DNA of 5,125 bases, from contig JACPMD010000024.1 in NCBI GenBank assembly GCA_016186235.1, forward strand, positions 1 to 5,125, read 5' to 3'. Shown here piece after piece: positions 1 to 5,125 of this stretch. The notes under the pieces are model-generated. The model was not told the DNA's origin, did not search any database, and saw only the letters and a program-made list of their open reading frames with translations. Position 1 is the stretch's first letter. Every line of letters starts with the position of its first letter. The stretch comes from Candidatus Roizmanbacteria bacterium (lineage in GTDB: Bacteria; Patescibacteriota; Microgenomatia; UBA1406; GWC2-37-13). The translations under genes were made by a program, and so were the position numbers.

Positions 1-2122
1 AGACTATAGAGTCTACGTAAAATATTGGCCTTTCTGTTGTTCCATCAGATTCTTCAAAGTCGGGGTCAATCTTCAGTGTATAGAAGACAACATTTCTTCC
101 CCTTCCTATATGCGCTAAATGACCTTCGAGAATAACACTATTCCTAGAGGGGTCATATTCTTTCCCCTTCAGACCTCTACAGGTAATTTTAAAGAGGACT
201 TCACCTTCGTCTATTCGCTTTCTGAGAGTATAGTTGTCCTCACCGTCAATTTTTTTTAATTCTAATTGCTCATTGAGAAAACTCCCGTCAGGCAAAAAAA
301 ATGTTTTTTTAGTTTCCTCATGTTTCCAACCGACTGACGCTAAGATGCCCATTTCTGGAAATAATAATACCGATAGAAGACTTCCTTCTAACTCTTCTAA
401 ATATCGCGCGGAACTGATAGGGTAACTATAAAGTTTATTACCAAAGTAGAATGCGAAACACGGTCCACTTGTTTTCCTGTTGTCATCGATAGCTCCAGTG
501 AGCAAAACAGGATTATGAGCAAGTACATCGTAATCAAGACCATATGGTACTATAGTTTTCAATTCATACAAACCATGAGATGTCATGAACGAGAATACAG
601 CACGTTCACCTACTGAATCTAAAATTGCCGGTTTGATTCGTCCATTGTTACGATCCATCTTAAATTCGACAGAGGTTCCATTTTTTAACTCAAAACCAAA
701 TAGTCTTGTATCTTGGTCTTGCTGACGCCAAAAACTCTTTCTTTGCGTAATTGACCTATCAAATATACTTAGTGGCAAGCTTAGAATGCAGTGAAGTCCC
801 ACATCGTCAAGTCTTCGGGATGGATCGAAGCGAAAAAGAAGATTTACTCGCTCTGGAGATTGTGGATTGAGAGGTAGATTGAGAGGTAGTAGGAAAAGGT
901 CATAGCGAGAGTCTTGAAAATAAGGAAAATTGCCAATAAATTCACATCCATATTCGGCTAAACGTTTTCGCGATTTTTCCTCTTCAGACAATTCAACAAA
1001 TTCGCTTAACTCTCCTGTTTCTACAGTTGGCAGATCAAGTGCAGTTCGAATATCTCTATAGGTATGATTAGGCGGCAGATCAGCAAACGAATCAAATCTT
1101 TGTCTCTGTAGCATTTCATTAGCTTCTGCAAGGGTAGAGTCGTTTATTTCATCTCTCGAATTTGGCAGTTTGCCAGCTTCCACAGGTCCTGTCAGATAAT
1201 GAGCGAATTCAGAGACCCTTTGACCAACGAGTTTACGAATAAAATCATCACTTAAAATTCTACTTCTCTCCTTTGGATCTTTCTGAAAGAGTATTCTACC
1301 TACTACATGAGCCAAACGAGTAACACGCGTTGCTAAGTCAGTAGAAGTATCTGGAACTACGAAACCTGCTTCGTATTTTGGAAGCATTTTCTCTAATTCG
1401 TGGTTGTTAATAAACCAACCCCATTTAGCCGCATCTTGCCATTCTAGCGTTAACCATCGCGTTGTGAGATTTAAAACGAGAAATTGGTACATCTCCAGGT
1501 ACTGTATCATGTGTTGTCTCTGAGTGTAGGGTTTTATTTTCATCCAATAACTATCGAGTTGATGGGTAAGTTCGTGAAGTGTTTCAAACGCTGACCATTC
1601 CTCATCATCGGGAAATGTCAGTCCTGTAATGCCACGGCCAACATAACCGCCATCGTTGACTATAATAGTGCCAGGCAAGGTCAGAAGAAGTCGCGAAAAC
1701 GAAGGGACAAAACGGTGCAAAAAATCACGGAACTTTGTATCGTCTTGAGGACTCAAATGATAGGGAGGTTTTTTCAGTAAGAGGTCTATGTGATCAACGA
1801 GTTCTTTGGCATCTTGAGTATGTGAGCCTTGACGTATACCCCATTCATCTCTGATTGCTGCTATTGATGGGTCATCTGCATCGACTATTTCATTTTCAGC
1901 AACCTGTTTTAAAGGAAGATAGAAGCTAGGAAAAAGTACATAGCCAAACAGCTCTTCCATTACTCTTCCCTGCGCATAGACCAGAGCGAAATCTCGTAGT
2001 CCAAACTTTTGTAGATTGACTTCATGACTTGGGGGTAGTCCAGCTCGAAAATCTAACGGCGCAAAAGCCACAGCGGCTCCTAGTTCTAGAAAATTGCGTC
2101 GTGTAATTTTATCCTTTTCCAT
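1..2122 (-). CDS. Putative Tat-exported HExxH metallopeptidase-like protein, C-terminus off the left edge
   Basis: I read this frame codon by codon from ATG at 2122 to the window edge: 707 codons without a stop, and the C-terminus is missing. The start is the first ATG after an in-frame TAG 21 nt upstream; no Shine-Dalgarno is visible. Residues 7-14 read TRRNFLEL, close to the twin-arginine export consensus (S/T-R-R-x-F-L-K), followed by a short apolar stretch to about residue 23 and a possible AFA cleavage site at 19-21. Residues 148-170 are Gly- and beta-rich and lead into a helix with HELTHQLD (183-190), the HExxH zinc motif. Candidate third ligands are E210 and E227; E227 lies 40 residues after H187. 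A Trp-rich helix follows (W223, W228, W234, W236). Residues 370-390 are charged and helical, and 395-707 look beta-rich. I recognise no family over the full length. Proteolysis and export are inferences; the open frame is certain. Confidence 0.85.
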   Translation of the reverse strand, partial: MEKDKITRRNFLELGAAVAFAPLDFRAGLPPSHEVNLQKFGLRDFALVYAQGRVMEELFGYVLFPSFYLPLKQVAENEIVDADDPSIAAIRDEWGIRQGSHTQDAKELVDHIDLLLKKPPYHLSPQDDTKFRDFLHRFVPSFSRLLLTLPGTIIVNDGGYVGRGITGLTFPDDEEWSAFETLHELTHQLDSYWMKIKPYTQRQHMIQYLEMYQFLVLNLTTRWLTLEWQDAAKWGWFINNHELEKMLPKYEAGFVVPDTSTDLATRVTRLAHVVGRILFQKDPKERSRILSDDFIRKLVGQRVSEFAHYLTGPVEAGKLPNSRDEINDSTLAEANEMLQRQRFDSFADLPPNHTYRDIRTALDLPTVETGELSEFVELSEEEKSRKRLAEYGCEFIGNFPYFQDSRYDLFLLPLNLPLNPQSPERVNLLFRFDPSRRLDDVGLHCILSLPLSIFDRSITQRKSFWRQQDQDTRLFGFELKNGTSVEFKMDRNNGRIKPAILDSVGERAVFSFMTSHGLYELKTIVPYGLDYDVLAHNPVLLTGAIDDNRKTSGPCFAFYFGNKLYSYPISSARYLEELEGSLLSVLLFPEMGILASVGWKHEETKKTFFLPDGSFLNEQLELKKIDGEDNYTLRKRIDEGEVLFKITCRGLKGKEYDPSRNSVILEGHLAHIGRGRNVVFYTLKIDPDFEESDGTTERPIFYVDSIV
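865..889. repeat. 12-bp tandem duplication inside the large minus-strand gene
   Basis: The unit GATTGAGAGGTA occurs twice back to back (865-876 and 877-888), plus one extra base of a third copy. The period is a multiple of three, so the frame is kept, and the protein gains a duplicated LPLN tetrapeptide (residues 412-419). It most likely arose by replication slippage at the entry to the beta-rich C-terminal half. Confidence 0.8.
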
Positions 2123-2159
2123 GGTAAAATAGAATATAAACTAATCAAAATAGACTTAT

Positions 2160-2187
2160 AGTATACCACGCGTCAAAGATTTTTCAA
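2160..2187 (-). promoter_or_regulatory. Candidate sigma70-type promoter for the large minus-strand gene
   Basis: Read on the minus strand, a -35 box TTGAAA (2187-2182, 5 of 6 consensus) is followed by a 16-bp spacer and a -10 box TATACT (2165-2160, 5 of 6), with an extended TGG directly before it. Transcription would start near 2153, leaving a leader of about 30 nt to the ATG at 2122. A second, weaker pair (TTGACG 2176-2171, TATTTT 2152-2147, 18-bp spacer) overlaps it. Assignment rests on consensus matching alone. Confidence 0.5.
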
Positions 2188-2197
2188 TCTGGAAATT

Positions 2198-2305
2198 ATG
2201 CCCAAGATAAAAATTAAGAAGGAAATTCTCTGGAAGATTGTGATAGTTGTTTCTTCATTACTGCTTGTTTTTTCGTCTTTAGCACCGTTGCTTTTTCTCA
2301 GATGA
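2198..2305 (+). CDS. 35-aa single-pass membrane micro-protein upstream of recG
   Basis: ATG at 2198 opens a 35-codon frame ending in TGA at 2303-2305. The N-terminus is strongly basic (MPKIKIKKE), then about residues 10-34 form one hydrophobic helix rich in Ile, Val, Leu and Phe, with a single proline at 30 and a terminal arginine. By the positive-inside rule the N-terminus would face the cytoplasm. There is no upstream in-frame ATG before a stop at 2159-2161. A weak GGA sits only a few bases before the ATG, so initiation is uncertain. The gene is divergent from the metallopeptidase-like gene (75 bp between start codons) and its stop lies 25 bp before recG, so it may share a transcript with recG. 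I know no function for it. The basic-then-apolar design argues for a real gene, but at this length a chance ORF cannot be excluded. Confidence 0.5.
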   Translation: MPKIKIKKEILWKIVIVVSSLLLVFSSLAPLLFLR

Positions 2306-2313
2306 ATTCAGTT

Positions 2314-2319
2314 TATGAT
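2314..2319 (+). promoter_or_regulatory. Possible -10 box immediately before recG
   Basis: TATGAT (5 of 6 consensus) ends 11 bp before the recG ATG, which would give a transcript with a leader of only a few bases. No convincing -35 box lies at the right distance: TTGCTT at 2288-2293 leaves a 20-bp spacer. Read-through from upstream of the micro-ORF is equally possible. Confidence 0.22.
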
Positions 2320-2330
2320 TATCCTATTGT

Positions 2331-4382
2331 ATGTATCTACAAACGTCTATAGATGATCTTCCTTCAACAAGTGTAATAACGAAAAAAAGGTTTAGGTCGA
2401 TCGGAATCAATACATATAGGGATCTTATCAATTATTTCCCCTTTCGCTACGAAAATTATTCGCTCCATTCAACAATAAAAAGGTTGCAGCCTGGCGAAGT
2501 TGTCACGTTAAGAGGGACAATAGAGAAAGCCAAATTTGAAATTACGAGAAAGGGTAAGAAGATACAAAAAGTTATCTTAAACGACGGTACTGACACGATT
2601 GACCTCGTGTGGTACAACCAACCCTATCTGTTGAGGTTATTTAGACCCAGCCAAAATCTTTCGGCATCCGGCGAAGTCAAATCCTTTCAGAATAAACTGA
2701 CGATAGAGCCACAGTCATACGAATTATTAAACAACCCTAAACAGCGCACTATTCATACAGGCAGGCTTGTCCCAGTGTATTCCGAACAAAGAGGTCTCTC
2801 ATCAAGAGTAATAAGAGAAAAAATTTATACAATACTTTCATTATTGACTGACGAATCTCTGACCGAATTTCTCCCTGGGGAAATTTTAAACTACAATCAT
2901 TTGATCGATGAGTTCGAAGCCTATCAGCAAATACATTTTCCCAATGACATTGCGTCAGCGAATAAAGCTCGAGGGAGGTTGGCTTTTGATGAGCTCTTTG
3001 TCATCCAGCTTGCTGCAAAATTGATTCGCAATGAGTGGCAGAAAGAAATTGTTGGCAATCCGTTCCGCATAGGTCTTGTCGAAGATCAGAAGCTTAAAGA
3101 ATTTATTGACGATCTGCCTTTTCAATTAACGGACGCACAAAAACGCACGGTTAAAGAGATCATTTCTGATCTTAAGAAACCCTCTCCGATGAATCGTTTT
3201 CTTGAGGGCGATGTAGGTTCTGGTAAAACCGTTGTTGCGACGGTGGCTGCCTATCTTTCTTACCTAAATAATTACCAGACAGTATTTATGGCCCCGACAG
3301 AAATTTTGGCTTTTCAGCATTACAATACGTTGTCCAGACTTCTAAAAAGTTATCCACTAAAAGTCGGCTTGCAAACCGGAACAAAGAAAGTTGCAAATAC
3401 GACTGAACACTATGACATACTCGTGGGAACACACGCCCTCATCAGCGGAAAATTTTCGCTCGATATGATCGGTTTGACTATCATCGACGAGCAGCATCGT
3501 TTCGGTGTCGTTCAGAGAGCTAGCCTCAAAGAAAAGGGAATCAATCCTCACCTGTTGACGATGACTGCGACGCCCATTCCACGTACTGTTGCGCTTACTC
3601 TCTATGGAGAATTGGATTTATCAGTTATTGATGAAATGCCGAGAGGCCGCCTTCCTGTTAAGACGGTTCTTGTAACAAAGAATAAAAGGCTTCGCGGATA
3701 TGAGTGGATTAAAAAACAAATCAAAGGCGAGCAAGTCCAGGTATTTATCATTTGTCCGCTTATCGAGGAATCAGACGTCGAAACAATGAAATCGGTAAAG
3801 GCGGCTACCAAGGAATATGAGCGACTGCAGAAAGAAATATTCCCCGGGTTTAATCTCGGACTGCTCCACGGAAAACTCAAATCGAAAGAAAAAAATCAGA
3901 TTATGGAAGATTTCAAAGCTAAAAAATACGATATTCTCGTCTCGACTCCGGTGGTTGAGGTAGGAATTGATATACCAAGCGCTACTATTATGGTGATCGA
4001 AGCTGCGGAACGATTTGGCCTCGCTCAACTTCATCAGCTGCGAGGCAGAGTCGGAAGAGGTTCAAAACAATCCTACTGCCTCCTCTATACCGAATCGACC
4101 GACAAAAAAGTAGTTGAGAGGCTTCAGACTTTTACCAAGATTCAGTCCGGAATGCAGCTTGCCGAATACGATCTTAAACTGAGAGGTCCAGGTGAAATCT
4201 ATGGGGTAAGTCAACATGGATATCAGGATCTAAAAATAGCCTCTCTGGCAGATTATGAATTAATCGATGGAACTAAGCGGGCAGTAAAATATTTCATGCA
4301 AAAGTATAGCAATATTGCGGAGTTTCCGGAGATAGAAAGGAGAGTTGAAGCGTATAAGGTAAGAAAGATAAGTAGGGATTAA
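2331..4382 (+). CDS. recG: ATP-dependent DNA helicase RecG
   Basis: RecG is a cytoplasmic superfamily-2 double-stranded DNA translocase that remodels stalled replication forks, Holliday junctions, D-loops and R-loops in repair and replication restart. At 683 residues it is full length (E. coli RecG has 693). In order: N-terminal helical segment and FPFRYE linker (to about 45); OB-fold wedge domain (about 46-135) that splits fork arms; Q-motif region PFQLTDAQ (263-270); Walker A GDVGSGKT (293-300); APTEILAFQH (321-330); VGTHAL (365-370); Walker B DEQH (386-389); TATPIPRT (412-419); LLHGK (511-515); STPVVEVGIDIP (538-549); QLRGRVGRG (569-577); and the TRG translocation motif around LRGPGEIYGVSQ (617-628). 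The start is the only ATG after an in-frame TGA at 2316-2318; no Shine-Dalgarno is present. The usual Gly-x-Gly of the extreme N-terminus (LPGVGP in many homologues) reads LPSTSV here. No catalytic residue is missing. Confidence 0.98.
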   Translation: MYLQTSIDDLPSTSVITKKRFRSIGINTYRDLINYFPFRYENYSLHSTIKRLQPGEVVTLRGTIEKAKFEITRKGKKIQKVILNDGTDTIDLVWYNQPYLLRLFRPSQNLSASGEVKSFQNKLTIEPQSYELLNNPKQRTIHTGRLVPVYSEQRGLSSRVIREKIYTILSLLTDESLTEFLPGEILNYNHLIDEFEAYQQIHFPNDIASANKARGRLAFDELFVIQLAAKLIRNEWQKEIVGNPFRIGLVEDQKLKEFIDDLPFQLTDAQKRTVKEIISDLKKPSPMNRFLEGDVGSGKTVVATVAAYLSYLNNYQTVFMAPTEILAFQHYNTLSRLLKSYPLKVGLQTGTKKVANTTEHYDILVGTHALISGKFSLDMIGLTIIDEQHRFGVVQRASLKEKGINPHLLTMTATPIPRTVALTLYGELDLSVIDEMPRGRLPVKTVLVTKNKRLRGYEWIKKQIKGEQVQVFIICPLIEESDVETMKSVKAATKEYERLQKEIFPGFNLGLLHGKLKSKEKNQIMEDFKAKKYDILVSTPVVEVGIDIPSATIMVIEAAERFGLAQLHQLRGRVGRGSKQSYCLLYTESTDKKVVERLQTFTKIQSGMQLAEYDLKLRGPGEIYGVSQHGYQDLKIASLADYELIDGTKRAVKYFMQKYSNIAEFPEIERRVEAYKVRKISRD

Positions 4383-4630
4383 CTATGTGAGTGCTTTAAT
4401 TCCTCTGGTAGATCAACAAGGTCTTTATCTAATAATTTATTGACTCCCGATGCAGCAAATATTGCTTCTGTAGTTGGACTTCCTAAAAGTCCTCTTCCAA
4501 AACTTCTTGACGATGTATGCTCCAAATGATGAGCATTATGCCTGTCAATTAGGTCAATTTATTCATCAGTTAACTTCATTCCTTTTGTCTGTTTATGCGT
4601 TATAACAGCTAAATTAGGCAGCAGTAATTT
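4379..4630 (-). pseudogene. Possible decayed coding remnant, tail-to-tail with recG
   Basis: On the minus strand the frame 4630-4379 is open except for one TAA at 4561-4559. Downstream of that stop are 59 codons beginning IDLIDRHNAHHLEH and ending LPEELKHSHS, then TAA at 4381-4379, which overlaps the recG stop within a TTAA palindrome. Upstream the same frame reads THKQTKGMKLTDE directly before the stop, so a single G-to-T change (GAA to TAA) would explain the break (KLTDE-E-IDLIDR). In another frame just upstream, a short ATG stretch (4655-4614, MKEALRIIKITAA) could be the original N-terminus after a frameshift. The composition is protein-like (acidic and basic residues, a His-rich patch, Gly-rich GRGLLGSP). 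I do not recognise a family. The complementary plus-strand frame is also fairly open over 4386-4529 but has no ATG, so strand choice is a judgement. Confidence 0.35.
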
Positions 4631-4727
4631 TTATTATCCTTAAGGCTTCCTTCATATTTTAGATTATATCAACGGTACAATCGAATGTCAATTGCATCTC
4701 GAGGGAAAAGGCTGCTACAATAAATAC
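4383..4727. other. 345-bp gap between recG and the kinase gene
   Basis: No intact gene is visible on either strand. The left two thirds are covered by the possible minus-strand remnant. An exact 6-bp inverted repeat with an 8-base loop (ATGCTC 4517-4522, GAGCAT 4531-4536) lies inside it without a following T-run. The part from about 4631 to 4690 is AT-rich and featureless. The right end holds the promoter of the next gene. I found no intrinsic terminator for recG. Confidence 0.6.
4692..4721 (+). promoter_or_regulatory. Extended -10 promoter for the PfkB-family kinase, probably leaderless
   Basis: A -35-like TTGCAT (4692-4697, 4 of 6) is followed by an 18-bp spacer and TACAAT (4716-4721, 5 of 6), preceded by TGC, which makes an extended -10 element. 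The usual start distance of about 7 bp puts the first transcribed base at or next to the A of the ATG at 4728. The gene has no Shine-Dalgarno, which agrees with a leaderless message. Confidence 0.6.
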
Positions 4728-5125
4728 ATGTTTGATTTAATCTCAATTGGAAGTATCAGTATCGATCTTTTCTTTAAAAGCGATACTTTTACGTTTTCCA
4801 ATAACCGTTTCCAACTGGCCGTGGGCGGAAAATACTTCGCTCCCTACTTCCATACGGGGATTGGCGGAGGTGGAACAAATGTGGCGATCGGCGCAGCAAA
4901 ACGCGGGCTTAAGGTAGCTGTCTGTGGTTTAATCGGTGAAAATCCCTTCAAAAAAATGATTGTAGACCATCTGGACGGTTTTAACATTTCGCATAAATTT
5001 TCCAAGATAGTCAACGATTATTTCAATATTTCCACGATACTTTTAACAGAAAAAGGAGAAAGAACAATTATCCATCACTCTACCCCGCACCAAAAATTAT
5101 TCGATCGTTTTTTTACAAAAGATCT
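4728..5125 (+). CDS. PfkB/ribokinase-family carbohydrate or nucleoside kinase, N-terminal 132 residues
   Basis: The frame runs from ATG at 4728 to the right edge (132 full codons); PfkB kinases are usually near 300 residues, so more than half is missing. These cytoplasmic enzymes transfer the ATP gamma-phosphate to a sugar or nucleoside hydroxyl. The start FDLISIGSISIDLFF matches the family's first beta strand with a substrate-contacting aspartate (D13). Residues 44-69 (GIGGGGTNVAIGAAKRG, then VCGLIGEN) match the first PfkB signature, a glycine-rich stretch followed by Asn and later GxxGxN/D. Residues 100-118 (STILLTEKGERTIIHH) match the strand pair of the lid region that precedes the substrate pocket. 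The catalytic Asp and the ATP-binding GxGD motif lie beyond the window, so the substrate (ribose, fructose, adenosine or other) cannot be stated. A probable extended -10 promoter sits directly before the ATG. Confidence 0.93.
   Translation, partial: MFDLISIGSISIDLFFKSDTFTFSNNRFQLAVGGKYFAPYFHTGIGGGGTNVAIGAAKRGLKVAVCGLIGENPFKKMIVDHLDGFNISHKFSKIVNDYFNISTILLTEKGERTIIHHSTPHQKLFDRFFTKD

Follow-up and report, generated by a model that had tools for sequence, protein, structure and literature searches.

The locus and the reading frame at the contig end

The stretch of DNA analysed here (the window) comprises bases 1-5125 of a 6899-base contig, part of an 820 kb assembly in 162 contigs that is 80% complete. 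On its minus strand lies an open reading frame that begins with ATG at base 2122 and continues without a stop codon down to base 2, where the end of the contig truncates it (Table 1). The neighbours on the plus strand are recG and a gene for a pfkB-type kinase. The kinase frame runs on past the window (5123-5125 and on) through six X residues, which correspond to an assembly gap of N bases, and beyond the window it is followed by a frame that, by its sequence, appears gpmI-like. An Rfam search at the gathering threshold gave no match.

A previous sequence-only reading of this DNA had picked out two motifs in the truncated protein, TRRNFLEL near the N-terminus and HELTHQLD at residues 183-190, and both are indeed present. 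It had further proposed an exported metallopeptidase in what might be a reduced-genome lineage, of a kind that it could not place in any family. The small assembly agrees with a reduced genome, and placement failed here as well: the window protein stays below the cut-off of every Pfam and NCBIfam family. Pfam gives sub-threshold matches only (Peptidase_M64 with 12.2 of 26 bits and TAT_signal with 14.8 of 22.7 bits) and NCBIfam gives nothing at E 1.

Table 1. Features of the window, with residue numbers for the minus-strand protein
Feature	Position	Strand	Remarks
ORF of predicted exported metallopeptidase	2..2122	-	707 codons; C-terminus missing at contig end
Leader, residues 1-30	2033..2122	-	Bears TRRNFLEL; no lipobox Cys
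TRRNFLEL, residues 7-14	2081-2104	-	R8 R9 at 2096-2101; RR invariant in 5/5 homologues
N-terminal module, residues 31-365	1028..2032	-	Common to all five members; three stop shortly past it
HELTH, residues 183-187	1562..1576	-	Predicted zinc ligands H183 and H187, predicted general base E184; invariant in 5/5
E210, candidate third zinc ligand	1493..1495	-	Acidic residue 27 or 28 positions past first His in 5/5; putative role
H308	1199..1201	-	Invariant in 5/5; P313 and P320 belong to the same conserved stretch; candidate second-shell or transition-state residue
C-terminal half, residues 390-707	2..955	-	Strands in low-confidence model only; BLASTP homology to Gottesmanbacteria protein up to residue 553
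recG	2331..4382	+	
pfkB-type kinase gene	from 4692	+	Frame continues past the window

A sparse family with a common N-terminal module

Genome searches uncovered four homologues, all from other Patescibacteria and with 19-28% identity to the window protein, whose own genome is referred to as G000: G137 (742 aa, from Ca. Gottesmanbacteria GW2011_GWA2_43_14), G013 (407 aa, from Patescibacteria SKW302), G218 (424 aa) and G730 (489 aa). The window protein as query matched 3 of 185 related genomes, its own gene included; a profile of three members matched 4 of 373 genomes of the class (own genome included) and gained one further member; and a profile of four matched 2 of 379 genomes of the phylum, again counting its own, and yielded the fifth member. 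These draws of genomes overlap and the counts are not additive. The class is presumably Microgenomatia, to judge from the placement of Gottesmanbacteria there. BLASTP links the window protein to G137 (E 8e-25 across residues 1-553) and G013 (E 2e-07); the G218 and G730 members were matched by profile (E 1.4e-19 and E 1.2e-13), and pairwise BLASTP ties G730 to both G218 and the window. Searches within the families to which G730 (5 genomes) and G137 (15 genomes) belong gave no additional member.

Larger collections were nearly silent. The window protein alone had no match at E 0.001 in 5.8 billion proteins (7994 candidates scored), and neither did an alignment query containing the Gottesmanbacteria protein (none of 7992). 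The latter did not recover even the protein that it contained, so its silence says little about rarity. A later alignment query had one match of 7999: P0001, a 222-aa piece that, judged by eye, agrees with the protein of G730 up to its final few residues. In genome contigs a single-sequence search had no match and an alignment query found just the two members already known; in viral contigs the alignment query found none. Against NCBIfam, PHROGs and PADLOC the best results for the five members were E 0.014, E 0.09 and no match, respectively.

In the five-member alignment the invariant columns are R8, R9, D44, L182, H183, E184, H187, P257, H308, P313, P320, R342 and P350. The G013, G218 and G730 members consist essentially of the N-terminal module, with a longer stretch ahead of the twin arginines in G730, and the C-terminal half is an extra common to the window and G137 proteins (by BLASTP similarity to residue 553; past that residue their global alignment is not counted as evidence). 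Because three members manage without it, this half would serve binding rather than catalysis in the window and Gottesmanbacteria members. Its earlier description as beta-rich has a counterpart only in a model of low confidence (mean pLDDT 35.7), with strands mostly at residues 394-671.

The HExxH site and the predicted peptidase

Loss of H183, E184 or H187 among homologues, which the sequence-only reading had named as a point that would speak against it, did not arise: the three residues are conserved in each of the five proteins, and the alignment keeps HExxH in 5/5. By chance, HExxH appears in 3.6% of 20,000 whole-protein shuffles, and [ST]RRx[FLVIM][LIVMFK] within the first 40 residues appears in 0.2% of the same number; conservation of R8, R9, H183, E184 and H187 in all five members is a stronger argument than either frequency. 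There is also a candidate for a third ligand, an E or D found 27 or 28 positions past the first His in every member (the offset shifts by one, and the residue is D in G013). From the sequence, zinc would be bound by H183, H187 and this acidic residue (E210 in the window protein), with E184 predicted to activate water and H308 to support the transition state.

The nearest known counterparts are the gluzincins of clan MA(E), such as the thermolysin, M2 and M3 types. Like them, the window protein has an acidic residue at a gluzincin-like distance past HExxH (E210, 23 residues from H187), and roughly 100 residues beyond it the family has an invariant His. The family differs from them in that the third residue may be E or D, in that its fold is putative, and in that PDB sequences match the window protein with E 0.34 at best. 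In the G013 (HEQAHEL) and G218 (HEFSHRL) members a charged residue directly follows the second His, which departs from the textbook zincin pattern. Peptidase_M64 (PF09471) shares a weak local match at residues 152-191, up to and including HExxH, but scores reach only 12.2-13.6 bits against the cut-off of 26 and just one of the five members has any match.

We infer fold and catalysis for this family from such resemblances, structure prediction being of low confidence: AlphaFold with 3- and 4-row alignments gave models with mean pLDDT 35.7 and 40.8, too poor to use, and Foldseek with the second model found no PDB match at E 0.001 or better (best E 0.46). Both models nevertheless place HExxH inside one helix and E210 in the next, an arrangement that fits a gluzincin and proves nothing. 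The Gly-rich beta region that had been described ahead of the HExxH helix corresponds to two short strands (residues 153-155 and 159-161) in the first model and to none in the second.

The N-terminal module is mostly helical in both of these models, which would also suit a protein that is not a peptidase at all: an HExxH helical protein that binds metal in some other way, perhaps at a di-iron site formed by two ExxH motifs (E184..H187 and E305..H308), or one whose fold is degenerate and non-enzymatic. An E at position -3 of the invariant H308 in three of the five members points the same way. However, G137 and G013 lack the second E at that place, and H183 is invariant in 5/5; a di-iron ExxH pair would not need a His such as H183. 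A ferritin-like di-iron site was rejected as first choice because of the non-conservation of the second E, and a non-peptidase identity in general appears unlikely. The window protein is best regarded as a predicted surface peptidase with no family match in the libraries searched. Neither an HExxH protein of this type nor twin-arginine leaders in Tat-lacking CPR bacteria are mentioned in the titles and abstract openings of the matches listed from the open-licence PMC literature. A host-associated lifestyle has been proposed for the radiation, according to the abstract of PMC9166423.

Twin-arginine leaders and the probable route of export

All five members have RR within the motif [STD]RRx[FA][LM], never KR, RK or KK, with no lipobox Cys in the stretch inspected; in G730 the longest frame has about 55 residues ahead of the pair. 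The matches by which G137 and G218 were discovered included the leader, and those of G013 and G730 stopped short of it, so that the SRR motifs of the latter two are independent evidence. Twin-arginine leaders are usually read as pointing to Tat export. The family resembles Tat substrates in having RR near the N-terminus in 5/5, and differs from them in matching the model TAT_signal (PF10518) weakly or not at all and in that no TatA or TatC is detected in any carrier genome. When the member proteins were searched, one of five matched TAT_signal; counted by genome, in the four carriers other than G730, the model matched the G000 member with E 0.0015 and the G137 member with E 0.32 and left those of G013 and G218 unmatched at E 1.

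The proteins could be ordinary Tat substrates in carriers that do have Tat, with tatA and tatC in unassembled parts of the genomes or too divergent to detect. The leaders have the twin-arginine form by eye, and PMC9166423 reports that Microgenomatia, Paceibacteria and Saccharimonadia have Tat (TatA with TatC). Yet a check for tatA and tatC in the same genome, which the sequence-only reading had recommended, was negative there and in the four other carriers; its interpretation is supported in part, by the lack of a family match, the HExxH kept among homologues and the small assembly, and not by the tat genes. PF00902 found TatC in 0/4 carriers (G730 excluded), and a model made from four TatC proteins of the class, the only one to cover G730, found it in 0/5 and recovered 2/2 TatC-positive relatives as a positive control. 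TatA (PF02416) was found in 0/5 carriers and matched 4/4 TatC-positive relatives. Two of the carriers are 96% (G013) and 98% (G137) complete, the rest 80% (G000), 75% (G218) and 88% (G730), and, if all had Tat, multiplication of the five missing fractions gives about 5e-6 (from completeness, with independence assumed), which argues against Tat in every carrier. The class TatC matches listed are all strong (E 6.3e-36 or better), with none weak at E 0.001. TatC occurs in 23 of 187 class genomes, which is compatible with a Tat-positive carrier and at the same time makes absence from five carriers ordinary, so the oddity is the leader. We consider Tat export distinctly improbable.

Twin-arginine leaders without TatC are not peculiar to the window family. 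At E 0.01 or better, TAT_signal matches 57 of 187 class genomes: 8/23 with TatC and 49/164 without (Fisher p 0.63), that is, no association in the class. The two 187-genome sets are taken to be one because their tallies (161 complete genomes, 162 genera) agree, as do the handles listed; the TatC listing gives most TatC-negative genomes as part of the count rather than by name. Over the Pfam cut-off the figures are 3/23 and 26/164 (p 1.0). In 14 named control genomes, by comparison, TAT_signal matches the same 11 that have TatC (8 over the cut-off) and none of the other 3. Because class genomes with and without TatC have such matches equally often, yet in the controls matches and TatC coincide, inferring Tat export from a twin-arginine leader looks unsafe in Microgenomatia. 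Such leaders are not universal either, since two of three TatC-negative family relatives are without a TAT_signal match at E 1 (the third has three weak ones). In G137, where TatC was not detected, TAT_signal gives seven matches at E 1, of which three reach 0.01; each lies early in an open frame.

This leaves two options for these bacteria: Sec carries twin-arginine leaders, or an unknown factor reads them. Sec is the likely export route of the family; the leader would export the protein through it, with twin arginines retained where Tat is missing. In its plainest form the Sec option makes the motif a mere basic n-region without special meaning. Sec leaders also need a positive n-region, TAT_signal scores the leaders weakly and no TatC is detected in the carriers. 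Against so plain an account stand the RR, never KR, RK or KK, of all five members, two of them discovered by matches outside the leader; the hydrophobicity of the leaders (best 15-residue Kyte-Doolittle mean 0.96-2.07, for the five members only); and SRRxFLK-like sequences in 20 leaders of 20 other TatC-negative genomes, though these were selected with TAT_signal. A motif devoid of special meaning is possible but doubtful. RR in 5/5 goes beyond what Sec alone should need, and it is the point that the Sec reading explains least well, which keeps a TatC-independent reading open. A translocation factor other than TatC may read twin-arginine leaders in these bacteria, with the window zincin family as one cargo, a speculation to which we give little credence. 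The accompanying proposal, that genomes in which TatC goes undetected retain complete SRRxFLK leaders on a group of predicted surface enzymes (HExxH proteins, ChaN-like proteins and a cell-wall hydrolase), is just as much a long shot. Overall, and with moderate confidence, we favour a sparse family of Patescibacteria proteins that find no family match in the searched libraries and are likely exported gluzincin-type zinc peptidases; all five have twin arginines and come from five genomes in which no TatA or TatC was detected.

The 20 further leaders come one each from 20 of the 49 matched TatC-negative genomes and were picked for high TAT_signal score, so the motif is there by selection: they are SRRxFLK-like in form, with [ST]RR in 18/20. 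A possible start codon (ATG, GTG or TTG) lies at most 22 residues ahead of RR in 19 leaders and 37 residues ahead in the remaining one; in L046 and L052 the frame also extends 90 or more residues further upstream, making the position of the leader uncertain. Five of the 20 have a lipobox pattern. Another Pfam domain at E 0.001 is present in five (M23, alpha/beta hydrolase, GH10, VanW and ChaN-like) and in none of the rest.

Several other observations concern neighbouring or similarly led proteins. A 479-aa frame of G137 (L007 6308..7747), with a KRRRFLK leader and without a Pfam match, lies 47 bases upstream of, and in the same orientation as, the Gottesmanbacteria homologue; the two may form an operon of twin-arginine-led proteins. 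HExxH occurs in two more twin-arginine-led proteins of TatC-negative genomes, L047 172-1494 (G170, HEFLHEVD) and L039 290-2173 (G188, HESWHVLV), which may be unrelated to this family; the G170 protein was rejected as a sixth member of the family, profile comparison covering the HExxH stretch only (probability 1.7) and hmmsearch giving E 3.5. ChaN-like (Cofac_haem_bdg) proteins with twin-arginine leaders are found in two TatC-negative genomes (L030 3196-4161 in G218 and L055 271-1239 in G236). Finally, proteins with a YGxGxYGxG-like motif past the signal peptide adjoin tatC in 4/4 TatC loci inspected (L016 453..1193, L017 451..1194, L018 104..1225 and L019 2410..3198), and one such protein (L008 6859..7584) lies directly upstream of the G013 homologue.
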